Shown: in pieces, positions 23,374-38,650 of the stretch
How positions within the stretch are numbered: the stretch's first letter is position 1
Layout: each line of letters opens with the position of its first letter
Source of the DNA: Archangium sp.
GTDB lineage: Bacteria; Myxococcota; Myxococcia; Myxococcales; Myxococcaceae
Length of the DNA: 64,000 bases
Assembly: GCA_030695565.1 (NCBI GenBank)
Contig: JAUYRZ010000070.1
Coordinates: forward strand, 1-64,000
Reading direction: 5' to 3'
The notes under the pieces: model-generated
The model's database searches: none
What the model was told of the DNA's origin: nothing
The model's input: the letters and a program-made list of their open reading frames with translations, nothing else
Position numbers and translations under genes: made by a program

Positions 23374-23551
23374 CGTGTCACAGCCAACGTGCCCGAGTTG
23401 CCAACGAGCGATGGAGCTCCCATCGTCTGGCCGGGGTCACAAGCGCCTACACCCGCGCACCAATAAGTTGAGCTGAGTCAATCCATTCGTTGACGCGCAG
23501 TGCTCGGCACCAAATGATTCACAGCTTCGTCGCCCTGAAGTGGAGTCCCGA

Positions 23552-26500
23552 GTGCGTGTTCTGACAGTGAGTCTGTTGGTGTTGAGCTTTGGGTGTGCCC
23601 CGGAAGTCCCCAAGCAGCTCGACTCTCCCTTCTCGATGGCGAGCCACTCCATGGCGTTCGCCAACTACGCGGACGGCTACCCGTTCTCGGAGTTGGACGC
23701 CGATCTCGCGGTGCGCATGTTCGGCGCGGAGGTCTGCCAGAACGCGGCCTCTCCCTGCGAGCTCACCCCGGCGGCCCGGGCCTTCGTCAAGCGCGCCAAC
23801 CGCGCGATGGAGGGCGGCCGCTGCGAAGGCTTTGCCGTCTTGTCTTCGCTCTTCGAGGCAGGCCAGCTCGACCCGGTCGACTTCGAGGGCGCGACCGCCC
23901 GCGAGCTCACCCTGGAGGGCAACGCCCGGCTGCAGCGGGAGCTGGCCTACTGGTTCGCCACCCAGCTCGTACCGGAGGCTTCGACCGAGAAGACCAAGCA
24001 GTACATGGCCAAAGACGTGATGCCTGCGCTCGCCAGCGCCCTGGCCAAAGACTCGAAGGAGCGCTGGCGCATCGGCATCGTCCGCAAGAAGGGGAAGACC
24101 ATCTCGGGCGGCCACGCCCTGACCCCCATCGGCTACTACTCAGACCCCACCCAGAAGGGTGTCTATTGGCTGCGCGTCTACGACAACAACCGCCCTGACG
24201 CCGAGCGGCTGATGAAGATCGACACGGTGAACAACCGCTGGGAGTTCGAGGCCTCCGAGAACCCCGAGAAGTCGCCGCGGCTGTACTTCGGGGACGCCAG
24301 CAACAAGAACCCCCTCTACCTGGCGCCCGTCTTCACCCGGCAGGGCACGCTGCCCTGCGAGTTCTGCAAGAGCGGCGGTTCAGTGCAGGTCAGCACCACC
24401 GGCGGGGCCCAGGTGTCGGCCTCCGGGGTGGGCGTGTCTGACGGCGAGCTCACGGGCCCGGTCTCGCCGGGCTTCTCGCAGGGCCTCGACGACGCGCCCG
24501 CGACCTTCATCTACAACTTGCCCGCAGCTTCGGCGCAGAACTTCGTGCTGACGCACCCGGAAGACGCCGACTACCCGTTCGCCGAACAGGGCGTGGAGAT
24601 CGCTGGCGGCACCTTCACCGTCTCGGTGGACGACCTGCAGATCACCGCCACCGACCAACTGCAGCTCCAGAACAACGGCGGGGCGGTCAAGTACACCAAC
24701 GCCTCCGGGAGCAGCCTGAGGCTCAAGACCGAGCTCGCGCTGACCGACGGCGGCGCGCTCTCGGTCGCGGCCGTGGTGAGCGGCGCGTCGAGCGACGTGT
24801 CGGCCAACGTCGATCCCCTGACGGGCCAGGTCTCGATCGCGGCGGGCAACTCCGCAGGCGCGCAGGTCACGATGGTGGTCACCACCACCAACGGCGCCGG
24901 CGAGGAGACCACCGGGCAGCTCACCTTCACGTCCAACGGCGACGGCGGCATCACCGCCGACACCAGCGCCTGGGCCGGCGGTGACCCGCTGACCGGCACC
25001 GTCACCAACAACGGCATGACCATGACCGTCACCAACGCCTGCGAAGACGGGGTGCGCTCGGGCATGGAGACCGACGTGGACTGCGGCGCCGTGTGCATGA
25101 CGAAGTGCGACGTGGCGAAGGGCTGCAGCACCGGCGCCGATTGCGCGTCGACCTTCTGTCACGCGACCACGAAGCTGTGCGTGGCCACGTCCTGCGAAGA
25201 CGCCACCCGCAGCGGCGACGAGAGCGACGTGGACTGCGGCGGCTCGACCTGCGCCCGCTGCGCGCTCGGCCAGGCCTGCGCGGGCAACGCTGACTGCAGC
25301 TCGAACGCCGCCTGTGTGGGGAGCGTGTGCGCCGCCACCTGGGTGGTGGGCCTCACCGTCAACGGCCTGCCCAGCACGGCGCAGGTGGTGGTGCAGAACA
25401 ACGGCGGCGACGACCTGACCCTCTCGGGCAACGGCAGCTTCGCCTTCCCCACCCGGGTGGTGGGGCCGTACGCGGTGACCGTCTTCAGCCAGCCGCTCAT
25501 CGCCACTTGCACCGTGGTCAACGGCGCGGGCACCGCCACCGCTGACGTCTCGAACCTCCAGGTGAACTGCACGCCGACCTGGGCGCTGGCCGGCACCGTG
25601 AGCGGGCTGCCCATGGGCGAGTCAATCGTGCTGCAGAACGGGGCCGACGCACTCACCCTCACCGCCGACGGCGCCTTCACCTTCAACAACCGGGTGACCG
25701 GCGCTTATGCGGTGACGGTCCAGACGCAGCCCACCAGCGCGAGCTGCGTGGTGGCCAACGGCTCGGGCACCGCGACCTCGAACGTCAGCGGCGTCACCGT
25801 GACCTGCGCCACGGGCTACTCCATCGGCGGGGCGCTCACAGGCCTCCCCATCGGCCAGCAGGTGACGCTGCGGAACAACGGCGGCGATGATCTCACGCTG
25901 CTGGGCGACGGCCCCTTCACCTTCGCCACGCGCGTCAGCGGCGCCTACGCGGTCACCGTCTCGGCCCAGCCCATGGGCGCGGCCTGCACCGTGAGCAGCG
26001 GGTCAGGCACTGCGAGCGCCAACGTGACCAGCGTGACGGTGGGCTGCGTCGCCTCGGGGGACCTCGACCCGTCCTTCAACATGGTGGGCTGGCTGGCCTC
26101 GCCACAGGGCACCGGCTCCGACTTCTGGACCGACAGCGTGCTCAACCCGGACGGCACCATGACGCTGGCGGGGCAGATCACCGTCGGCGCCGGTGACACC
26201 GACTGGGTCATCAGCAAGGTGACGGCGGCCGGCACGCTCGACCCCAGCTTCGGGCTCGGTGGCCACGCCACGCTCGGTCGGGGGGCGGGCATCGAATACC
26301 CGCGGGGCATCTTCCGGGACGGCTCGGGCAACTTCGTGGTCGTCGGCGGCCTCTGGGGGGCTACTGACCCCGACCTGGGCGTCGCCCGCTTCACGCCCAC
26401 CGGCAGCCTCGACACCACCTTCGGCATCTCGGGGACCCAGATCAGCGACCCGGGCCAGTGGGAATACTTCGAAGACGTCGCGCAGGACGCCACGGGCCGC

Positions 26501-27232
26501 TACGTCGCCGTCGGGCGCCGCTCCATCGCCGGGGCCGGCCCCCATGACGCCCTCATCGTGCGGGTCAACGCCAACGGCACGCTCGACAACGGCTTCGGGA
26601 CGAATGGCGTCGTCACCTGGAACGCCGGCGGTGACGAGTCGGCCACCTCCGTCGCCATCGACAGCGCCACCCAGGACATCCTGGTGACGGTCGCCGCCGG
26701 CGGAGACACCGTGGTGCTCCGCTACAACTCCATCGGCGGGCTGGTCTCTGGCTTCGGCACCGGCGGGGTCCTCACCGTGGATCTCAGCGGCATCATCCTC
26801 GACGATTGGCCGTACCGGGTCGTCATGTCCGGCACCAACTTCCTCGTGGTGGGCCGCGTGGACAACCCCGTCAACTCCGACCTGGTGGTCGCGCGCTTCA
26901 CCAGCACCGGCGCGCCTGACACCGGGTTCGGCACGAACGGGAAGCGGGTCATCGACAACGGCGGCAACGAGGTCGGCTATGCCATCACGCCGGGCCCCGC
27001 CGGCGGCTGGTACGTCGGAGGCCACAGCGACGGCTCGATGCTGGTCAGCCGCATCTCGGGCTCCGGGGTGATCGACACCACCTTCGGCACCGCGGGCCTC
27101 TTCGCCCAGCCGCTGGCAAACTCTGCGCTCGCTTACGACCTCCTGGTGGACGGTTCGCAGCGCATCGTCGCGCTCGGCACCATTCGCCTCACAGGCACCG
27201 AAGACCTCGGCGTCTGCCGCATCTTGCCGTGA
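23552..27232 (+). CDS. Surface lipoprotein: papain-like domain, Cys-rich and delta-60 repeats
   Basis: First gene of a four-gene operon. The GTG at 23552 is preferred (GGAG 6 bases upstream); the lipobox is LSFGC (Cys15). Residues 30-225 hold a candidate papain-fold triad: Cys91 (GRCEGFA), His188 (SGGHALTPIGYY) and Asp211/Asn212 (VYDNN). Residues 290-500 are beta-rich. Two Cys-rich modules (CEDGVRSGMETDVDCG, CEDATRSGDESDVDCGG) follow at about 505-600, then three 75-residue beta repeats (GLP...DDLTLxGxGxFxF...YAVTV). The C-terminal 390 residues are delta-60 repeats (LDPSFG, GTLDNGFG, TGAPDTGFG), which usually form a propeller. The product is probably a cell-surface protein that processes or binds a protein or glycan. 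Peptidase activity is inferred only from the triad. Confidence 0.88.
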   Translation: MRVLTVSLLVLSFGCAPEVPKQLDSPFSMASHSMAFANYADGYPFSELDADLAVRMFGAEVCQNAASPCELTPAARAFVKRANRAMEGGRCEGFAVLSSLFEAGQLDPVDFEGATARELTLEGNARLQRELAYWFATQLVPEASTEKTKQYMAKDVMPALASALAKDSKERWRIGIVRKKGKTISGGHALTPIGYYSDPTQKGVYWLRVYDNNRPDAERLMKIDTVNNRWEFEASENPEKSPRLYFGDASNKNPLYLAPVFTRQGTLPCEFCKSGGSVQVSTTGGAQVSASGVGVSDGELTGPVSPGFSQGLDDAPATFIYNLPAASAQNFVLTHPEDADYPFAEQGVEIAGGTFTVSVDDLQITATDQLQLQNNGGAVKYTNASGSSLRLKTELALTDGGALSVAAVVSGASSDVSANVDPLTGQVSIAAGNSAGAQVTMVVTTTNGAGEETTGQLTFTSNGDGGITADTSAWAGGDPLTGTVTNNGMTMTVTNACEDGVRSGMETDVDCGAVCMTKCDVAKGCSTGADCASTFCHATTKLCVATSCEDATRSGDESDVDCGGSTCARCALGQACAGNADCSSNAACVGSVCAATWVVGLTVNGLPSTAQVVVQNNGGDDLTLSGNGSFAFPTRVVGPYAVTVFSQPLIATCTVVNGAGTATADVSNLQVNCTPTWALAGTVSGLPMGESIVLQNGADALTLTADGAFTFNNRVTGAYAVTVQTQPTSASCVVANGSGTATSNVSGVTVTCATGYSIGGALTGLPIGQQVTLRNNGGDDLTLLGDGPFTFATRVSGAYAVTVSAQPMGAACTVSSGSGTASANVTSVTVGCVASGDLDPSFNMVGWLASPQGTGSDFWTDSVLNPDGTMTLAGQITVGAGDTDWVISKVTAAGTLDPSFGLGGHATLGRGAGIEYPRGIFRDGSGNFVVVGGLWGATDPDLGVARFTPTGSLDTTFGISGTQISDPGQWEYFEDVAQDATGRYVAVGRRSIAGAGPHDALIVRVNANGTLDNGFGTNGVVTWNAGGDESATSVAIDSATQDILVTVAAGGDTVVLRYNSIGGLVSGFGTGGVLTVDLSGIILDDWPYRVVMSGTNFLVVGRVDNPVNSDLVVARFTSTGAPDTGFGTNGKRVIDNGGNEVGYAITPGPAGGWYVGGHSDGSMLVSRISGSGVIDTTFGTAGLFAQPLANSALAYDLLVDGSQRIVALGTIRLTGTEDLGVCRILP

Positions 27233-27246
27233 CCCCGGAGCACACC

Positions 27247-30200
27247 ATGAACCTGCTTACCCGAAGGAACTCCCTGGTCTGCGTTTGCGCCCTGGTCTTC
27301 GCCGCCTGCGAGACCCAGGAACAGCCGCCACCGCTCTTCAACGCGAAGGATCTCTCGGTGCAGTGCCCCACCGGCCAGGTCGGCTGGGACTTCAGCACCG
27401 GCGGCAACGACACCGACATCGTCGAGAACAGCGTCTCGCGCGAGATCACCATCGACAGCGCCACGCTGGGCAGCTGCAACTACAAGGACGACTTCGCCGT
27501 CAGCTGCGACGGCAAGAACGAGTGCACCCGGCTGGCGAAGAACAGCACCTCACCTTCCTGCAGCGGCGGCGCGCTCAACCTCACCTACCACTGCGGTGAA
27601 GAGGCGCCCCGCTACAACGTGGTCATCCCCGGCGACGCGAGCGGGCAGATGGTGAACCTGGCCTGTGGAGAACCCATCACCATTCTCTCGGCGGTGTATT
27701 CGTCGAACGGGCCCACCGCGGCCAACCAGCGGAACATCACCACCGCCGTGGCCTCGGCGTGCACCGGCAGGCGCCGCTGCTCCCTCGATGACCCCTACGT
27801 GCTGAACAACCGGGAAGACCCCTGGCCCAACAACCACAAAGACACCCTCATTCGGTACTACTGCGGCGTCGATCCCTCCATCAAGGAGACCACGGTCGGC
27901 AGCGGTCAGCGGGTGGACCTCCAGTGCCCGAAGAACGAGGTCAAGCCGCCGGAGTTCAAAGACACGCTGCGCGTCGTCTCGGTGGAGTGCTTCGGGAGGA
28001 ACCCCGGCGAGCAGGCAACTTGCGCCACCGCCAACTCGACCCGAGACGCCACCGTCAAGGACTTTGAGCGGCGGATCCGCCTGGCGTGCGAGGGCAAGCG
28101 CTACTGCAAGGTGCCCGCGACGCCTTACACCTCGGGGCTGATCAGCGTGTCGATGTCGCTCACCTACTTCTGCACCAGCCCAGAGGCGCCTGAGACCAAG
28201 CTGTTTCACAACTACGAAGCCCCCTTCGTCGAGTTCTACTGCAGCACCCCCATTCAGATCGTCAATGTGTCCGGGAACGGCGCCCAGCCCGAAGCGGCGC
28301 GCGCAGCGTGCGACCACAAGTCGGCCTGTGTCCTGCCGCCTCTGCAGAACGACGGGGGGTTCGGCTACTTCTCGGCCACGTATTCGTACACCTGCGGCGA
28401 GAACGGCTTTGACGTTCGGGGGAAGCAGTACGGAGTCTCGTCGATCTACTCCAGTTCCGCCCGGGCCCACGTGGTGGTGGGCCCCGACCCGCTGACCCGT
28501 CAGATCCAGTGTGACGCGCCCAACAACAACCTCTTCGCCGGCATTCGCATCGCGAGCGCGCGGCTGGGCGGGGGTGACGGTCTGCTGGAGGCGACCCGCC
28601 AATGTTACGGACGAGACACGTGCTTCATCCAGACCAACAACTCGGGCGACACCGCCACCTACCGCTGCGGGAGCAGCAACGCGACCCAGACGGCGGCGCG
28701 GAAGTCGATCCTCCCCGCGGGCCTGATTCTGAGCTGCAGACCCGACGTGGTGGTGAAGTCGGGCGTCTGCGACCTGGTGGGGTCCGGCGCGCCGATCGCT
28801 GAGTACCCCACCCAGTGCATCGACGGCACCACCCGGAGCTACATCGCAGGGGCGGTCACCTGGTGCTTCCCGGGCAACAACGGCAGGTGTGAGATTCGCC
28901 TCCGCCGGCTGTCGCAGAACGCGGTCGCCCAGACCATTCGGCTCAAGTACCAGTGCGGCGGCGACCCCAAAGAGTACGAGTACTACGGCCAGGGCGAGAA
29001 GGAGAACGACTTCTACAACCTGGTGAAGCTCGAGTGCGCCGTGCCCGATCAGCCCTACGTCGAGAAGGCCTGCATCCCCGAGTCCTGCCCCGTCAACACG
29101 CGCCGCGACGCGAAGCTCGGCTGCATCCCCGACTCCACCAAGACCGCCGCCACCGTCTTCACCGCGCCCATCCTCAAGGAGTGGATGTCTGACGGTGATG
29201 GCGGCACCTCGCAGTGGGGCGGGGCGGTGGTCACCACCCTGCGCGAAGACTTCCCCTACCAGGTCTTCGGCTACACCCAGTACCGGGCGACGGGCGGCGC
29301 GCAACTGCCGCCCAGCACCCAGAGCACGCTGTGGGCCTACGACGAGTTCACCGCCATCGCGGGCGCCGGCGTGCCCTCCAGCCAGGCCAGCACCCTCGGG
29401 TTCCGCTGTATCCTCTCGAACGCGACGCTGCGCGACGCGGAGTACTCCAGCGTCACGCCGGGCTACCGCCGGGTCATCAACGGCGGCAAAGGCGCGGTGA
29501 TCCCCACCTCCTGCTACCGGCAGAACGTCGACGACGGCCGCAACGCCTGGGCTGACGCCGCCCGGCGCGTGGGCATCCCCGAGTCGCAGTTCCGGGCGAA
29601 GTACACCCGCCAGGCGTCGTGGGTGGTCTCCGCCTTCGACCCCACCGGCAAGACCACGGCCTGGGCCTACCCCGGGCGCCCCGCGGTGGCCCCCAACCCC
29701 ATCGGCTTCTTCTACAACTCGACCAACGGGTGGATCGATCAGGTCGGCTTCTACGCGCAGACCACCGACTTCCGCTTCAAGACGCAGGTCACCTTCGAAG
29801 AGAGCAACTCGCTGGAGCTGGCGGCCTTGTCCGCGAGCCTCCGGCAGTCGCTGCTCAAGGTCGACGTGGCCAATCGAAGCCTGCTCCCCACCTTCGACGT
29901 CGACTTGACCTGGTCGCAGCGGGGCGACTCACCGGCCCGCAACCCGCTCTCGCCGAACACGCTGCTCTCGACCAACCCGGCGACGCCGCTGAGCCGCCGT
30001 GATCTTCGCGCCACCATCGAGATGGCCCGGCTCGACGCCACCGCCCCCAACGAGTGGATCGCGGTGAACGCCACCCAGTTCCCCAACCGCAGCCTGGGCG
30101 AGGGCAACGCGTTCTCACAGACCGTTCGCATGACCGCGGCCTTCACCCCTGCGCTGCGTGAGCGCGCGCTGAGCGTCAGGGGCACCGAGTCGTACCAGAC

Positions 30201-31938
30201 CAACAACGGGTGGATGCGGGGCTTCGAGGAAGACCTGACCACCTTCAAGGTCCGCGTGTGCATGGACTTCAACGAGGTCTCCCACGTGTTGGGTGACACC
30301 GCCCTCGACGACAAGTGGGTGACGGCGGCCCGCGACGGCACCACGTACCGGCTGGGCTTCACCAAGCGCTGCGCAGACGCGGGGCTGGTGGTGCTCGAAC
30401 GCGAGCTCTTCATCTACCCCACCACCGCGGTCGCGACCGTCGAGACCCCGGCCAACAGCGCCTCGAGCTCCAGGCAGGGTGACCGGGCGGCCGGCAGCAC
30501 CAACGACATGGGCAACCAGAGCGGCTGCGCCGACACCGGCCAGACCGGCCAGAGCTGCAACGGGCAGTCGCGCAACAACATGGTCACCGGCGGCCAGTTC
30601 TCGCTCTCGGTGATCCAGTCCTCCACCGACGACCAGGCCGTGCAGGAAGAGACGACCAGGACCACCAAGCTCAGCAGCAACATGACCCTGTTCGGCTTCC
30701 GGGTCTTCGACCTCTCGGGCGGAGGCAACGCAGAGCCGCAGTCGTCGGGCGCGTGGGAGGTGAACATCAACCTCACCCCCAACCTCGACGGGATCGCCGC
30801 CCTCATCAAGAACCGGCGCACCGTGGCGGTGAAGACCAGCGCCAAGAAGGTGAAGACGAAGCCCAAGGCGAAGAAGGGCATCTTGAGCAAGTTCGAGCGC
30901 GACGGCCTGGCCATGTCGCTGAGCAAGGAGTTCCCCTTCACCATCGGCCCCTTCCCCTTCGAGCTCGAGGTGGGCTTCTCGGTCGGCTTCGGCTTCAGCG
31001 TGGGGGTGAAGATCGCTGGCGACCGACAGAGCGTCACCAGCATGGTGAACCCCAAGTACCCCTGCCTCAAGTCCACCGCTGGCAACTGCGTGATCGCCTA
31101 CTCGGCCACCAAGGGCTTCGACGACGCGCTGCGCGACTGCAACTACAAGGGGGGCCGGCTGGCCGAGGTGCGCACCGCGACCGATCTCACAGAGGTGACC
31201 GGCGCGATCAGCACCCTGGGCTCCACCAACCGGTACTACTGGCTGGGCGGGCAGCTCGCCTACATCTACGCCGACCCCCGCTGCGACACCGCCTACTCGC
31301 CCGGCTGCGCCACCGTCTCGCGCACCCGCTACTCCTGGCTGGTGGGCAACACCTCGATCGCCAACCAAAACCGGCTCGAGACGCCCCTGGTCGACCCCCA
31401 GCGGTTCATCGGCAACCACGCCTTCGGCAACAACCTGGGCGAGCTGATCACCCGGGTGCCCAACAAGGCCAGCGTGCTGCTCGACAAGGACACCAGCCGG
31501 CTGGCGACGGCCACGGTCGCGACCACCGCGCCCTATATCTGCACCTTCGAGCCCGCCTCGAAGTACATCGAGAACTCGATGGGCATCGAGGTGAAGGTGG
31601 AGTTCTCGATGGGGTTCAGCGCGTCGATCTGCACACCCAGCTCGAAGATCGGGTTCTGCCTCACCGCGGCGCTCAACCTCATGACCGCGGGGGTGAACGT
31701 GAGCGCCACCCGCTCGCGCGTCGTGGTGTTCAACAACAGCAACCTCAAGGTGAGCTTGCTGGGCGAGTCGAGGGTCGAAGGCACCTGGGAGGTGGCCTTC
31801 ATGTCGGGCTCGTTCTCAGCCGAGATCCGCGCCCTGCTGTGGGACCGCTCGTGGGAGATCGCGTCATACAAGGGCCTGTACGCCGTGGAGGGTGACCTCT
31901 TCGCCCCCATCGTCAGCCCGTACTGGAGGAAGTTCTGA
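27247..31938 (+). CDS. Giant lipoprotein with SUEL-like lectin repeats and a C-type lectin-like domain
   Basis: Second gene of the operon, 14 bases after the first, with GGAG 8 bases before the ATG. Lipobox LVFAAC (Cys21). Residues 35-570 contain about six Cys-rich repeats with the plan of SUEL/rhamnose-binding lectins: C...I.I.SA...C...C.GK..C...L.YxC. They end at LTYHC, IRYYC, LTYFC, YSYTC, TYRC and LKYQC. Residues 640-1260 are beta-rich without a recognised fold and include a Lys-rich stretch (KKVKTKPKAKKG). Residues 1270-1437 look like a C-type lectin domain (ALRDCNYKGGRLAEVRTATD, YYWLGG, APYICTFE). The last 125 residues are amphipathic beta-rich. This pairing of animal-type lectin folds on one bacterial lipoprotein suggests sugar recognition on prey, kin or matrix. 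Confidence 0.85.
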   Translation: MNLLTRRNSLVCVCALVFAACETQEQPPPLFNAKDLSVQCPTGQVGWDFSTGGNDTDIVENSVSREITIDSATLGSCNYKDDFAVSCDGKNECTRLAKNSTSPSCSGGALNLTYHCGEEAPRYNVVIPGDASGQMVNLACGEPITILSAVYSSNGPTAANQRNITTAVASACTGRRRCSLDDPYVLNNREDPWPNNHKDTLIRYYCGVDPSIKETTVGSGQRVDLQCPKNEVKPPEFKDTLRVVSVECFGRNPGEQATCATANSTRDATVKDFERRIRLACEGKRYCKVPATPYTSGLISVSMSLTYFCTSPEAPETKLFHNYEAPFVEFYCSTPIQIVNVSGNGAQPEAARAACDHKSACVLPPLQNDGGFGYFSATYSYTCGENGFDVRGKQYGVSSIYSSSARAHVVVGPDPLTRQIQCDAPNNNLFAGIRIASARLGGGDGLLEATRQCYGRDTCFIQTNNSGDTATYRCGSSNATQTAARKSILPAGLILSCRPDVVVKSGVCDLVGSGAPIAEYPTQCIDGTTRSYIAGAVTWCFPGNNGRCEIRLRRLSQNAVAQTIRLKYQCGGDPKEYEYYGQGEKENDFYNLVKLECAVPDQPYVEKACIPESCPVNTRRDAKLGCIPDSTKTAATVFTAPILKEWMSDGDGGTSQWGGAVVTTLREDFPYQVFGYTQYRATGGAQLPPSTQSTLWAYDEFTAIAGAGVPSSQASTLGFRCILSNATLRDAEYSSVTPGYRRVINGGKGAVIPTSCYRQNVDDGRNAWADAARRVGIPESQFRAKYTRQASWVVSAFDPTGKTTAWAYPGRPAVAPNPIGFFYNSTNGWIDQVGFYAQTTDFRFKTQVTFEESNSLELAALSASLRQSLLKVDVANRSLLPTFDVDLTWSQRGDSPARNPLSPNTLLSTNPATPLSRRDLRATIEMARLDATAPNEWIAVNATQFPNRSLGEGNAFSQTVRMTAAFTPALRERALSVRGTESYQTNNGWMRGFEEDLTTFKVRVCMDFNEVSHVLGDTALDDKWVTAARDGTTYRLGFTKRCADAGLVVLERELFIYPTTAVATVETPANSASSSRQGDRAAGSTNDMGNQSGCADTGQTGQSCNGQSRNNMVTGGQFSLSVIQSSTDDQAVQEETTRTTKLSSNMTLFGFRVFDLSGGGNAEPQSSGAWEVNINLTPNLDGIAALIKNRRTVAVKTSAKKVKTKPKAKKGILSKFERDGLAMSLSKEFPFTIGPFPFELEVGFSVGFGFSVGVKIAGDRQSVTSMVNPKYPCLKSTAGNCVIAYSATKGFDDALRDCNYKGGRLAEVRTATDLTEVTGAISTLGSTNRYYWLGGQLAYIYADPRCDTAYSPGCATVSRTRYSWLVGNTSIANQNRLETPLVDPQRFIGNHAFGNNLGELITRVPNKASVLLDKDTSRLATATVATTAPYICTFEPASKYIENSMGIEVKVEFSMGFSASICTPSSKIGFCLTAALNLMTAGVNVSATRSRVVVFNNSNLKVSLLGESRVEGTWEVAFMSGSFSAEIRALLWDRSWEIASYKGLYAVEGDLFAPIVSPYWRKF

Positions 31939-34001
31939 TGAAAGCGCGTCACGTAGGACTGGGTGCAGCCCTCGTCGTCGGCCTCGCGGGCGGCGCGCTG
32001 TGGCTGCGGGCAAGCCAGGAGCACGCTGAGCGTTCCGGCCCCGACGCCACGCCGGCGGCTCTGGCTGGAGCAGGTGCGACGCAGGTCGAGGCCTGTCGCT
32101 TCGAACCCGGAGCGCTGCACGCGTTCAACTACCGCAACGAGACGCACTTCCGCCTCAACACCCTGCTGCCCGGCGCGGCGGCCGCGGTGGCCCAGCCCGG
32201 AGAGGCTGAGCTCTCGGGCCTGCTCACCTTCGAGGTCTTGTCCTCCCACGGCACGGAGGCGGTGTTGCTCGGCCGGTTGACCCAGTCGAACGACAAGGCG
32301 CGCCTGGTGGCCGGCCAGGCGCTCGAGAACGGCTTCCTCGCGCGCATCGACCAGCGGTGCCAGGTGGTGGCCTACGCCAGGCACCAGCAGACCCCCCGGC
32401 TCACCTCGCGCGTCCAGCACGTGATGCTCAGCGATCTGGGCTTCTCGGTGGCTGACGGTACGCCCGTGGCCGAGGCCTCCTTCCCGACCTCCGTCGGCAC
32501 TCTGCGGGCGATGATCTCGCGCGGGCCCGAAGGAGAGCTGCTGCGCAAGCCGCTCAACTACCTCTCGCGCTGGTCTCCCCGCATGGAAGGCGTCGACGTG
32601 GTGGACGGCCTGGTGGAGGTGCGCCGGGCTGAGCGCGCGTGGTTCGAGACTCTGCACGGCGCGGAGGAGGTCGCGGGCGGCGCGGTGGAGTTCTCCCGCA
32701 CCGAGTGGGACGTCAACGCGACGCCGGCGGCGGCGGCGCCGCTGGCGGGCGTCTCGCGCCAACTCGCCGACTACGTGTGGGTCAACGCGCTGGCCGAGGT
32801 CGCTGAGGCCCGCGTCGAGGTGGGCGGCCAGCAGGCCGATCACGATCGCCGGGTGCAAGCGATGGCGCAGGTCACCTGGCCGGTGGCGATCGAGCGCTTC
32901 ACCGCGCTGCTCGAAACGGGGGCCAACATCAACGAGCAGTGGCGGGACATGGCGGCCTTCCTCGACGCGCACCCCGAGCAGGTGGAGACCTACGTGGAGC
33001 ACATCATGGACGAGGACTACCCCCCGGGGTTCAAGGCCCCCGCCTTCCTGGCGCTGGGTCAGGCGCGCACGCCGGTGGCGCGGGAGGCCCTGCTGGGCAT
33101 CTACCGGGAGCGGCAGAACGCCCCGGCAGATCGCATCCGCGGGAGCCTGGCGCTGGTGACGCGCGCCGACGTGGGCAAAGCGCTCGCCCAGGAGCTCCGC
33201 TCAGAAGCGACCCGCACCAACGCCGATCCCGCTGAGGCGGCGGTCGCGCGCCAGGCCCTGCTCCACCTCGGCATCCTCTCGGGCACCCGGCCCCACCAGG
33301 CCGACGTGGTGCAGGAGTCGATGGCGGTGGTGCAGCAGCTGGCCGCTGCCGCGAAGAGCCCGGAAGACTACTCGGTGCTCTGCGGCATGGTGGGCAACAT
33401 GGCTGAGCTCGCGTTGCTGCCCAGCATCGAGCAGTGGACGCACCTGCCCGACCCGCAGAGCCGCAAGTCAGTCCCCGCGGCGTTGCGCCGCTACAAGGTC
33501 GAGCGGGTCTACCCGTTGGTGACGGACTGGCTCGCGCGCGAGACCAGCCCCGACGTGAAGCGCGAGCTCTTCGACGCGCTCTTCCACATGTACGTCGACG
33601 CCGGCCGTCCGGTGGACGAGGCCATTCGCCGCAAGGCGCTCGAGCACCTCCAGGAGCAACCGATGGTGCTCACCCGCCAGTCGCTGCTCCACATCCTCGG
33701 GCCGTTCGCGGGCTCCGACCCCGAAGTGAACGCGGCGCTGCGCACCCAGCTCAAGCTCGAGCTGGAGGAGCGCTCGGGGTTGTATTCGCTGGTGGCCCAG
33801 TACCTGCCGGCCCGCAGCGTCTACGAGGTCCTGGCCACGGTGCCGAAGCTGCGCACCCAGTTCGGCGGTGCCCTGCAGCCCACCGTCGAGTCCACCCCGC
33901 CGCGGGGCCGGGAGATCCCCATCCCCGACATGCCGCAACCTCCGGGCTTCGAGGCCGCCATGCGGGAAGCGCCGCGTGGTGAGCCAGGAGGTGCACCGTG
34001 A
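31938..34001 (+). CDS. Vitellogenin N-domain-like / HEAT-repeat membrane-anchored protein
   Basis: Third gene; its ATG overlaps the previous stop (TGATG). Residues 1-25 are one hydrophobic helix, either an anchor or a signal without a clear cleavage site. Residues 52-250 look like a beta-barrel starting FEPGALHAFNYRNETHFRL, comparable to the opening FxPGxxYxYxY of vitellogenin/MTP-type lipid transfer proteins. Residues 270-640 are a helical HEAT-like array including LCGMVGNMAELALLPSIEQW, SVPAALRRYKVERVYPL and DVKRELFDALFHMY, which matches the layout GN...LLP...AA..ALRR...R..A of the vitellogenin helical domain. The Pro-rich tail is disordered. Lipid or lipoprotein binding is a reasonable guess; plain HEAT scaffold is the alternative. 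Confidence 0.8.
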   Translation: MKARHVGLGAALVVGLAGGALWLRASQEHAERSGPDATPAALAGAGATQVEACRFEPGALHAFNYRNETHFRLNTLLPGAAAAVAQPGEAELSGLLTFEVLSSHGTEAVLLGRLTQSNDKARLVAGQALENGFLARIDQRCQVVAYARHQQTPRLTSRVQHVMLSDLGFSVADGTPVAEASFPTSVGTLRAMISRGPEGELLRKPLNYLSRWSPRMEGVDVVDGLVEVRRAERAWFETLHGAEEVAGGAVEFSRTEWDVNATPAAAAPLAGVSRQLADYVWVNALAEVAEARVEVGGQQADHDRRVQAMAQVTWPVAIERFTALLETGANINEQWRDMAAFLDAHPEQVETYVEHIMDEDYPPGFKAPAFLALGQARTPVAREALLGIYRERQNAPADRIRGSLALVTRADVGKALAQELRSEATRTNADPAEAAVARQALLHLGILSGTRPHQADVVQESMAVVQQLAAAAKSPEDYSVLCGMVGNMAELALLPSIEQWTHLPDPQSRKSVPAALRRYKVERVYPLVTDWLARETSPDVKRELFDALFHMYVDAGRPVDEAIRRKALEHLQEQPMVLTRQSLLHILGPFAGSDPEVNAALRTQLKLELEERSGLYSLVAQYLPARSVYEVLATVPKLRTQFGGALQPTVESTPPRGREIPIPDMPQPPGFEAAMREAPRGEPGGAP

Positions 34002-34573
34002 TGCTCCGACGCGCGTGGTGGCTGGCGCTGGCGCTGGTGCTCGCCGGGTGCCCGGAGCCGGTGCCGGTCGAAGAAGAAGACGCCGGCGTCGAGCCCTACG
34101 ACGGTCCCACCCAGTCGAGCGTGATCCCCACGTTCGATCCCGACGCGATCGACGCGGGTGACCCCATCATCGACGCGGGCATGGTGACCATCGACACCCG
34201 GTGCTGTGACACCCAGTTCGCCATCACCGACGAAGAGCCTGCCGACGCAGTCGGTCTGTTGGAGGGGCAGCACACGCTCTTCGGGGCGGGCCTGCCACTG
34301 ACCCGCAGCGACGCGGGGTGGTCGGTCGCGGCCTGCTTCCCGCTCAACGCCTCGGCCTTCTACTGGTACCGCTTCACCTGGGACGGAGGCGTGTTCGACG
34401 CGGGCACCACCGACCTGGAGGACGGCGGCCAGGAGACCCTGTTGGTGCCCCTGACCGGTGAGTCGCTCCGGGCCAGCGCTTCGGAGCCCGGCTTCACCGA
34501 CGCTGACGGCGTGCGGCGCAACTACTACCGGGCAGTGGAGAGCTGCGACGGGCTGGACGGCGCCGTGCCTTAG
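33998..34573 (+). CDS. Small lipoprotein, last gene of the lectin operon
   Basis: The start overlaps the previous gene by 4 bases (GTGATG context). Lipobox LAGC (Cys18), then an acidic linker with DAG motifs, then a domain of about 120 residues with cysteines at RCCDTQF, AACFPLN and VESCDGL. Short aromatic beta strands (SAFYWYRFTWDGG) suggest a small beta sandwich. I do not recognise the family. The strict coupling says it is needed in proportion to the vitellogenin-like protein. Confidence 0.78.
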   Translation: MMLRRAWWLALALVLAGCPEPVPVEEEDAGVEPYDGPTQSSVIPTFDPDAIDAGDPIIDAGMVTIDTRCCDTQFAITDEEPADAVGLLEGQHTLFGAGLPLTRSDAGWSVAACFPLNASAFYWYRFTWDGGVFDAGTTDLEDGGQETLLVPLTGESLRASASEPGFTDADGVRRNYYRAVESCDGLDGAVP

Positions 34574-36275: not shown

Positions 36276-36670
36276 AGAGCCTCAACACCATGCTGCCTCT
36301 GACCCTCGCACTCGGCGGCGTCGTCGCGGCATTGGCGTTCGTGGTGCCCATGGATTCCGGCAGCCGCACCTCGGCGCTCATCGGCGCGCTGGTGGCTTCG
36401 GCGCTGGGCGCGGTCTCGCTGGTCTTGAAGACGCAGCTGGGCAAGGGCCTGACCGGTACCGCCGCGCTCAAGGTCACCATGACCACCCTGGGCCTGTCCT
36501 TCATGCTCCGGCTGATGGCCGTGGGCCTGGGCGCCGTGGTGATGAAGCAGAACCCCGCGCTTTCTCCTTTCGCGTTCGTCATCGCGTTCTTCGTCGTGTC
36601 GCTCTCGCAGCAAGTGCTCGAGACGCGCAGCCTGCTCAGCAGTGCAACACCAGTGAAGGTGATCTCATGA
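36272..36670 (+). CDS. F0 operon membrane protein (AtpI-like, second)
   Basis: A 132-residue protein with four hydrophobic segments and an ATGA overlap with the gene before. The arrangement of the helices and its place between the AtpZ-like gene and atpB fit the ATP synthase subunit I type of accessory protein found before F0 genes in many bacteria, though sequence identity is not obvious. It overlaps the start of atpB by 4 bases (ATGA), so translation is coupled. Confidence 0.75.
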   Translation: MKSLNTMLPLTLALGGVVAALAFVVPMDSGSRTSALIGALVASALGAVSLVLKTQLGKGLTGTAALKVTMTTLGLSFMLRLMAVGLGAVVMKQNPALSPFAFVIAFFVVSLSQQVLETRSLLSSATPVKVIS

Positions 36671-37683
36671 AGAAGTTGGCCCTCATCGTTCTCGCGCTGT
36701 TCGCGGCACCGTCTTTTGCCAATGACGAGCACGCCGTCGACCCGAATGCCCCGGTCGACAAGAAGAAGGAAACGGCCGACTTCATTCTCCACCACGTCGC
36801 AGACGACACCGTCTTCGAGATGGAGATCCCCTTCCCGCCGTACCACCTGCCCGCCATTCACATCGCCGAGGCCTTCGAGTTCCTGAAGATCGAGCGCGTG
36901 CCGGGCGCGTGCAGCGGCCACGCCCCCGCGGGTTTCGAGAGCTTCCCGTCGCTGGGCCTGTTCATTCACGGCTGCTGGGATCTGCGCCCCACCAAGGCCA
37001 TCTTGATGATGTGGGTCGCCTGCGCGGTGTTGTTCACCCTGCTGTTCTTCGGGCGCAAGCGTGACTCGAACGGCGTGCCCAAGGGCACCCTGGCGCACCT
37101 CATCGAAGTGCTCGCCCTGTTCGTGCGCGACGAGATCGCGGTGCCCAACCTCGGCAAGGAAGAGGGCAAGCGCTACACGCCGTACCTCACCTCGTTGTTC
37201 TTCTTCATCCTGGCCATCGACTGGCTCGGCCTCATCCCCGGCATGTTCGCGGCGACGGGTGTGGTCACCGTCACGGCGGCGCTGGCCATCATCACCTTCG
37301 TGATGATTCAGGTCGCCGGCATCCGCTCGGCGGGTCTGGGCGGCTACCTGGCGCACCTCACCGGCGGCGTGCCTGCCTTCCTCTGGCCCATCATGATTCC
37401 GGTCGAAATCATCGGCCTGTTCACCAAGCCCTTCGCGCTGCTCGTTCGTCTCTTCGCGAACATGCTCGGCGGCCACATGGTCGTCTTCTTCCTGCTCTCG
37501 CTCATCTTCGTGTGGACGCTGGGCGCCGCGGTGGTGGCCCTGCCGCTGACCGTGGCGATCTTCCTCCTCGAGATCTTCGTGGGCATTCTTCAGGCGTACC
37601 TCTTCACCCTGCTCACCAGCCTGTTCATCGGCCAGGGCGTCGCGATGGGTCACCACGCGCACGCAGACGACCACGCTCACTGA
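36667..37683 (+). CDS. atpB: ATP synthase F0 subunit a
   Basis: Stator half-channel subunit of the F0 motor in the inner membrane. The essential arginine is R261 in KPFALLVRLFANMLGGH. Further conserved motifs are TPYLTSLFFFILAIDWLGLIPG and VFFLLSLIFVWTLGA. At 338 residues it is longer than the E. coli protein (271) because of an N-terminal signal peptide (ALIVLALFAAPSFA) plus about 80 periplasmic residues, a layout known from several proteobacterial and myxococcal subunits a. It starts within the stop of the preceding gene and ends in a His-rich tail. Confidence 0.96.
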   Translation: MKKLALIVLALFAAPSFANDEHAVDPNAPVDKKKETADFILHHVADDTVFEMEIPFPPYHLPAIHIAEAFEFLKIERVPGACSGHAPAGFESFPSLGLFIHGCWDLRPTKAILMMWVACAVLFTLLFFGRKRDSNGVPKGTLAHLIEVLALFVRDEIAVPNLGKEEGKRYTPYLTSLFFFILAIDWLGLIPGMFAATGVVTVTAALAIITFVMIQVAGIRSAGLGGYLAHLTGGVPAFLWPIMIPVEIIGLFTKPFALLVRLFANMLGGHMVVFFLLSLIFVWTLGAAVVALPLTVAIFLLEIFVGILQAYLFTLLTSLFIGQGVAMGHHAHADDHAH

Positions 37684-37708
37684 GTCGGTACGACTCGAAA
37701 CGGAACCC

Positions 37709-37726
37709 CGCGGTGAAGTCACCGCG
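37709..37726. promoter_or_regulatory. Perfect 8-bp dyad between atpB and atpE
   Basis: CGCGGTGA and TCACCGCG are separated by two bases. The hairpin lies just upstream of the ribosome site (GGAGG 37729-37733) of the small leader ORF. It could stabilise the atpE message against decay or tune initiation. Confidence 0.5.
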
Positions 37727-37742
37727 CTGGAGGTAGTACCCG

Positions 37743-37805
37743 ATGGGAACGTTCTTCGACCCCCCCGAGAAGCGGGTCACACAACAGAAAGTATCGACAC
37801 CATGA
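37743..37805 (+). CDS. 20-codon leader ORF coupled to atpE
   Basis: A short ORF (MGTFFDPPEKRVTQQKVSTP) starts 9 bases after a perfect GGAGG and its TGA overlaps the atpE ATG as ATGA. atpE itself has no ribosome site of its own within 20 bases. The simplest reading is translational coupling, with ribosomes loaded at the leader restarting on atpE. Whether the peptide itself has a role is unknown. Confidence 0.6.
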   Translation: MGTFFDPPEKRVTQQKVSTP

Positions 37806-38035
37806 ACCTCACCTCAGCAATGCTCGCTTACCTCGGCGCCGGTCTCGGCGCTGGTCTCGCCATCATCGGTGCCGGCAACGGCATCGGCCGCCTCGCCGCC
37901 TCGGCGATGGATGGCATCGCCCGTCAGCCGTCCGCTGGTGGCGACATCCGCGGCGCGATGATCGTCGCGGCCGGCCTCATCGAAGGCGCGACGTTCTTCG
38001 CCCTCGTGATCTGCATCCTGCTCGCGCTCAAGTAA
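37802..38035 (+). CDS. atpE: ATP synthase F0 subunit c
   Basis: The 77-residue hairpin that forms the rotating c-ring. Helix 1 carries the GAGLGAGLAIIGAGNGIG glycine pattern, the loop is ARQPS, and the ion-binding carboxylate is E61 in GLIEGATFF. The residues after it lack the Ser/Thr and Gln signature of sodium-binding rings, so proton coupling is expected. Translation probably depends on the overlapping leader ORF. Confidence 0.96.
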   Translation: MNLTSAMLAYLGAGLGAGLAIIGAGNGIGRLAASAMDGIARQPSAGGDIRGAMIVAAGLIEGATFFALVICILLALK

Positions 38036-38055
38036 TTCGTCGTGACTCAACTCTT

Positions 38056-38080
38056 CCCTCTCCCTGAACAAGGGAGAGGG
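38056..38080. repeat. Perfect 10-bp palindrome between atpE and atpF
   Basis: CCCTCTCCCT and AGGGAGAGGG flank a 5-base loop. The strong hairpin lies within the operon and may attenuate transcription or protect the highly translated atpE message. The same GGGAGAGGG core recurs twice downstream of atpF. Confidence 0.75.
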
Positions 38081-38119
38081 TCGAGTGATGCAAACGTCGT
38101 TCTTGTAAGGAAACACAAA

Positions 38120-38650
38120 ATGAACTTCCTCGTGCTCGCCAGCAACAGCTTCACCGACGTGAAGCCCGGCCTCATCATCTGGACGTGGATCACCTTCATC
38201 ATCGTGCTCTTCATCCTCCGCCGCTTCGCGTGGGGCCCGCTGCTGTCGGCGGTGGAAGGCCGTGAGAAGAACATCACCAACGCCATCGAGAGCGCCAAGC
38301 GGGAGCGCGCCGAGGCCGAGAAGCTGCTCGGTGAGCAGAAGACGGCCATCGCCTCTGCCCGCCAGGAAGCGGCCGACGCGGTTCGCAAGACCCAGGCCGA
38401 CATGGAGAAGTTCCGCGAGGAGCTGATGAACAAGGCCCGCAAGGAGGCCGACTCGCTGAAGGCCGACGCCCAGCGCGCCATCAACGACGAGCGCGTGAAG
38501 GCCATCGCCGAGCTCAAGGGTGAGGCCGCCAAGCTGTCGATCGCCATCGCGGAGAAGCTGCTCGGCGAGAAGCTCGACGACGCGCGGCACCAGGCGCTCG
38601 CGCAGCAGTTCGTGCAGGACCTCGGCAAGAACCAGACGCCGCTCGCGTAA
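38120..38650 (+). CDS. atpF: ATP synthase F0 subunit b
   Basis: Peripheral-stalk subunit: one N-terminal membrane helix (GLIIWTWITFIIVLFIL, residues 14-30) and a long charged coiled coil (AIESAKRERAEAEKLLGEQ and onward). The C-terminal part (AIAEKLLGEKLDD) is the usual dimerisation end. The start has AAGGA 9 bases upstream. The operon stops here: no atpH, atpA, atpG, atpD or atpC follows, so the F1 genes must lie elsewhere. Confidence 0.94.
   Translation: MNFLVLASNSFTDVKPGLIIWTWITFIIVLFILRRFAWGPLLSAVEGREKNITNAIESAKRERAEAEKLLGEQKTAIASARQEAADAVRKTQADMEKFREELMNKARKEADSLKADAQRAINDERVKAIAELKGEAAKLSIAIAEKLLGEKLDDARHQALAQQFVQDLGKNQTPLA

Follow-up and report, generated by a model that had tools for sequence, protein, structure and literature searches.

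The open reading frame at 31938-34001 on the plus strand of the DNA analysed here, a 64,000-nucleotide stretch from Archangium sp. (hereafter the window), encodes a protein of 687 amino acids that family comparisons place in a superfamily of Myxococcota whose other branches match PF01347, the family of the vitellogenin N-terminal module. We consider it quite probable, on the strength of profile comparisons, that this superfamily shares distant homology with the animal N-terminal module, comprising the N-sheet and the helical domain, and highly probable that the protein and the product of the adjacent gene are functionally paired. For the system as a whole we favour, tentatively and at slightly under even confidence, an anchored vitellogenin-N homologue that falls short of a complete lipid transfer protein and would act as a docking or assembly partner for the adjacent product.

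The open reading frame is intact in the list of open reading frames and its translation, and the frame is kept in relatives with 25 to 53% identity. Four genes form a tight run in which it stands third: its ATG shares bases with the TGA that closes 27229-31938 (TGATG), and the open reading frame 33998-34573 starts inside its 3' end. A tally of neighbours showed that the genes starting at 23540, 27229, 31938, and 33998 are kept together in the window's subfamily. The features are as follows.

23540-27232, plus strand: gene 1 of the run, 1230 aa, with delta-60/DUF5122 beta-propeller repeats at the C terminus (TIGR02608, E 8.2e-37; DUF5122).
27229-31938, plus strand: partner gene, a 1569-aa lipoprotein with SUEL-lectin-like repeats in front (Pfam SUEL, E 0.017, sub-threshold; lipobox FAAC) and the common C-terminal beta domain.
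30931-31935, plus strand: the partner's C-terminal beta domain, residues 1235-1569 (profile of the region).
About 31048-31550, plus strand: putative C-type-lectin-like stretch interrupting that beta domain (Lectin_C matches in relatives, and sequence).
31938-34001, plus strand: vitellogenin-N-like anchored protein P0001, 687 aa (open reading frame and translation; family alignment).
31938-32015, plus strand: N-terminal membrane anchor, about residues 1-26, without a lipobox (sequence; hydrophobic segment at the matching place in relatives).
32094-32810, plus strand: beta-rich N-terminal domain, about residues 53-291, probable counterpart of the lipovitellin/MTP N-sheet (HEAT-free profile comparisons; invariant columns).
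32850-33860, plus strand: helical (HEAT-like) array, about residues 305-640, probable counterpart of the lipovitellin/MTP helical domain (HEAT_2 match at residues 468-548; helical-half profile comparison).
33998-34573, plus strand: gene 4 of the run, a 191-aa putative lipoprotein (lipobox LAGC), kept downstream in many relatives of the window's subfamily.

The initial annotation had placed the protein at the envelope and inside a lectin operon, and both statements are in keeping with the sequence. The protein carries a single N-terminal hydrophobic segment, MKARHVGLGAALVVGLAGGALWLRAS, without a lipobox, which is consistent with membrane anchoring, the topology itself being predicted; the expression lectin operon is reasonable in view of the four-gene run, the sub-threshold SUEL match of the upstream neighbour, and the C-type-lectin matches in relatives. 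The gene at 23540-27232 is a conserved neighbour of the window's subfamily. Directly after the region, at 36667-38650, lie ATP synthase-like genes (a-, c-, and b-type subunits), recognized from their translations only.

Vitellogenin wording had also been read in the protein. The quoted words are indeed present (CRFEPGALHAFNYRNET starting at residue 53, GNMAELALLP at 486, AALRRYK at 514, and FDALFH at 545), but the sequence by itself gave no vitellogenin match: the Pfam scan returned HEAT_2 (PF13646) alone, at 23.6 bits and thus under its curated cut-off of 27.7, with no PF01347 even at E 10, and phmmer against the PDB found no relevant match. HEAT repeats often contain GN/GD-P and LR patterns, so single motifs (GN..., LLP, AALRR) were dropped as evidence. 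The vitellogenin similarity emerges only with family profiles, not from the single window sequence.

Relatives of the window protein were found in 25 of the 195 genomes of the phylum by single-sequence search. PF01347 matched over its curated cut-off in 53 of 195 Myxococcota genomes, mostly across the helical part of open reading frames of about 620 to 780 aa; since it also matched in 2 of 14 control genomes, one of them over the cut-off, we did not take helical-part matches alone as proof. Each of the 60 open reading frames examined among those selected with PF01347 had a match at E 1e-7 or better to one or more of three family profiles; for 51, the matching profiles included that of the window's own subfamily. 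With one PF01347-selected protein as the query, relatives appeared in 59 of 193 genomes, frequently with several in one genome, and extended to taxonomic families beyond the window's; the window's genome holds two family copies, and a search of viral contigs found none. The full-length profiles of branches A1 (the window's subfamily), A2 (the PF01347-matching branch), and A3 matched one another at 99.8% (A1 and A2), 100% (A1 and A3), and 99.9% (A2 and A3). With the helical half removed, the corresponding values were 99.1% for A1 and A3, 98.1% for A2 and A3, and 97.5% for A1 and A2, so that the window's branch joins the PF01347-matching one without the HEAT part, at a score of 81.4 compared with 28.0 for the best of 260 unrelated natural profiles. 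Among 17 close relatives of the window protein, 3 match PF01347 weakly (best E 0.001) and 15 match HEAT_2 at E <1 (best 1.2e-10).

Invariant positions in the alignment of the window's subfamily include C53, C141, R203, Y208, W212, and W235, along with many in the helical half. The two cysteines also occur in the A3 branch (C42/C129 of L010) and not in A2; a disulfide between them within the beta domain is conceivable and would fit a periplasmic location.

For the comparison with animal proteins, the sequences of lamprey lipovitellin, human MTP, bee vitellogenin, and apoB were taken from PDB alignments; the human MTP query proved identical to 8eoj_B. An unverified sequence of chicken vitellogenin-2 was used to retrieve the 1lsh letters and enters as one row in the profiles LLTP and LLTPH and in one single-chain comparison; the full-length profile test was repeated with verified chains only (lipovitellin and MTP). 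On those chains an 85-member bacterial profile matched at 95.4% over 450 collinear columns (96.0% over 503 columns with the unverified chicken sequence added), and the helical half of the family matched the animal helical domain at 87.6%, or at 94.8% with the unverified chicken row. The proposed vitellogenin order, a beta domain and then a helical array, is thereby upheld, since the superfamily profiles align with lipovitellin and MTP over both parts. The expected match to PF01347 or to animal profiles was realized for the superfamily, but not for the window's own branch, where a profile of A1 and A3 without A2 reached a probability of 1.4% against the animal proteins. None of the N-domains of that branch matched PF01347 in the Pfam scan either, and the window protein is consequently linked to the animal proteins via intermediates.

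A collinear match of this kind might be produced by a common HEAT-repeat protein of the envelope whose beta domain is unrelated, its vitellogenin likeness being convergence or HEAT cross-matching. The window protein's sole Pfam match and the mostly helical location of the PF01347 matches, control genomes included, agree with this explanation, as does the higher score of HEAT_2 than of PF01347 in most members (e.g., 87.4 versus 66.4 bits); profile searches of the PDB with A1, A2, and A5 returned designed HEAT proteins or chance matches and no animal members. The window protein resembles HEAT_2 proteins in its C-terminal half, which is likewise a HEAT-like helical array, but it lies under that family's cut-off and its N-terminal half is HEAT-free and beta-rich. 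It is this half that makes the explanation unlikely in our estimation, because the signal persists without any HEAT sequence. The HEAT-free bacterial N-domain scored 32.6 against four animal N-sheets, above all 450 permuted and 260 natural decoys: the maxima were 14.3 for 150 column-shuffled and 17.4 for 150 block-permuted animal profiles, 19.1 with the bacterial side permuted (n = 150), and 24.9, over only 19 columns, for the natural decoys, which are mostly shallow profiles; deeper decoys built from the partner domain scored 10 to 14. The collinearity of the alignment across both domains speaks against HEAT cross-matching as well.

Other N-domain results are more uneven. Lipovitellin alone matched the bacterial N-domain at 62.7%, compared with 15.1% between MTP and lipovitellin in the same domain; MTP, apoB, and bee vitellogenin taken singly were not significant, with a similar register. 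For the HEAT-free N-domains of the divergent members L053 and L060, PF01347 was the sole Pfam family, at E 0.0015 over profile positions 1-148 and E 0.0023 over 84-150, respectively. In a plain Pfam scan of 25 diverse N-domains, PF01347 matched 3 (best E 0.0017), which by itself is modest support, as one unrelated family matched equally many. Taken at the level of the superfamily profile, the N-sheet thus stands above all decoys, and for the window's branch it follows by transitivity only; against the explanation we favour, neither the window protein nor its own branch matches PF01347 or animal sequences directly. The collinear profile match and the HEAT-free N-domain above all decoys nevertheless support the homology originally proposed. 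AlphaFold2 predictions made from two sequences only (the window protein and L001) reached a pLDDT of 47 over the whole protein and of 38 when confined to the N-domain, and a Foldseek search with a low-confidence model gave nothing at E <0.001; MTP (6i7s) came 10th (E 0.011) among HEAT proteins, which we do not count as evidence.

The designation as a large lipid transfer protein did not survive. Animal members continue past the helical domain with two sheets lining a lipid cavity (1lsh, 6i7s). The window chain stops after the helical array, with no C- or A-sheets in the same chain, and so is not a complete large lipid transfer protein; the superfamily profile reached 0.2% against the C-terminal part of MTP/lipovitellin. 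Compared with the vitellogenin N-terminal module (PF01347; lipovitellin 1lsh, MTP 6i7s/8eoj, apoB 9bd1), the bacterial protein has the same succession of a beta domain and a helical array, with the collinear match extending over both and including the HEAT-free beta domain. It differs in several respects: (i) lacking the two sheets, it would have no lipid cavity of its own; (ii) it is predicted to be membrane anchored, whereas the animal proteins are secreted or luminal; and (iii) it is paired with a separate secreted protein, and the window member has no direct PF01347 match.

One neighbour persists across the superfamily: it encodes a secreted protein whose C-terminal domain of alternating strands is related among the loci. 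This gene lies within 600 bp of 67 of the 75 family open reading frames, on the same strand in 61, although some of the 75 loci are closely related and the 67 pairings are not independent events. The window's genome has two partner copies and two family copies, side by side. The front part of the partner varies: SUEL-like repeats occur in the window and in L001 (E 0.017 and E 0.0037, both under the cut-off), a C-type lectin (E 4.8e-12) occupies the front part in A3-branch partners, and partners of the window-subfamily relatives bear C-type-lectin-like stretches near the C terminus. The C-terminal domains of A2 and A3 partners matched at 89%, whereas the match of A1 to the rest, at 69%, covered 76 columns. 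In the window's branch the domain is thus likely the one common to the superfamily, an assignment backed by position and gene order. The distant phylum member G191 carries two family members (L072 and L162), each adjoining a partner-type gene, and the pair thus extends well beyond the window's family. An orthologous group next to a dnaA look-alike, so named from its C-terminal protein letters, is the only branch without a partner (L134, L135, L141, L142, L154, L156, L165, and the second copy of L168).

What the pair does admits several answers. A split lipid carrier, in which the anchored N-sheet and helical arch are complemented by the amphipathic beta domain of the partner acting as the cavity sheets, so that the two together bind lipid or move it across or onto the envelope, is attractive in that the cavity sheets are just what the chain is missing, and a gene for an alternating-strand domain is kept alongside in nearly all branches. 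We rate it as rather improbable: the partner domain scored 12 to 14 against the C-terminal sheets of MTP/lipovitellin, no higher than the natural-decoy mean of 13.7, in a weak test that has no power, as MTP and lipovitellin miss each other there too. Somewhat less improbable, yet still doubtful, is a receptor or tether, in which the N-sheet would bind the secreted lectin partner and keep it anchored to the membrane, with neither a chaperone nor a lipid role; an anchor and a binding-type module adjoining a variable lectin protein would suit it, but the window's partner bears its own lipobox, which makes a tether unneeded.

The docking or assembly role that we favour is possible, although we hold it a shade more loosely than the overall reading given at the outset. 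The protein would be anchored in the inner membrane and face the periplasm, and its N-sheet/helical module may dock onto the C-terminal beta domain of the partner, an interaction suggested by gene order. Once docked, the module would retain the partner at the envelope, or assist in its assembly there, ahead of the display of this lectin-bearing protein. The docking can be likened to MTP meeting apoB, with any involvement of lipid conjectural. In both pairs an N-sheet and helical module is kept with a beta-strand-rich partner; this functional analogy has its limits, since the bacterial interaction is proposed from gene order only and the partner is lectin bearing.

To our knowledge, the vitellogenin/MTP/apoB module is regarded as a lipid-transport system of animals. 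The open-access papers that were searched name no bacterial counterpart of it; subscription papers and automatic database labels lie outside that scope, and earlier annotation is possible. The boldest interpretation, in which bacteria possess the animals' large lipid transfer machine in two-gene form, as an anchored N-sheet/helical protein and a secreted, lectin-fused cavity-sheet protein, widespread among Myxococcota and perhaps the animal family's source or its sister, seems improbable to us. No current family model describes the envelope system that the gene pair constitutes. If the homology is true, a bacterial homologue of the N-terminal half beside a dedicated partner in many genera would mean either a history of the module outside animals or a striking transfer, and the original function of the module would become testable in culturable bacteria.
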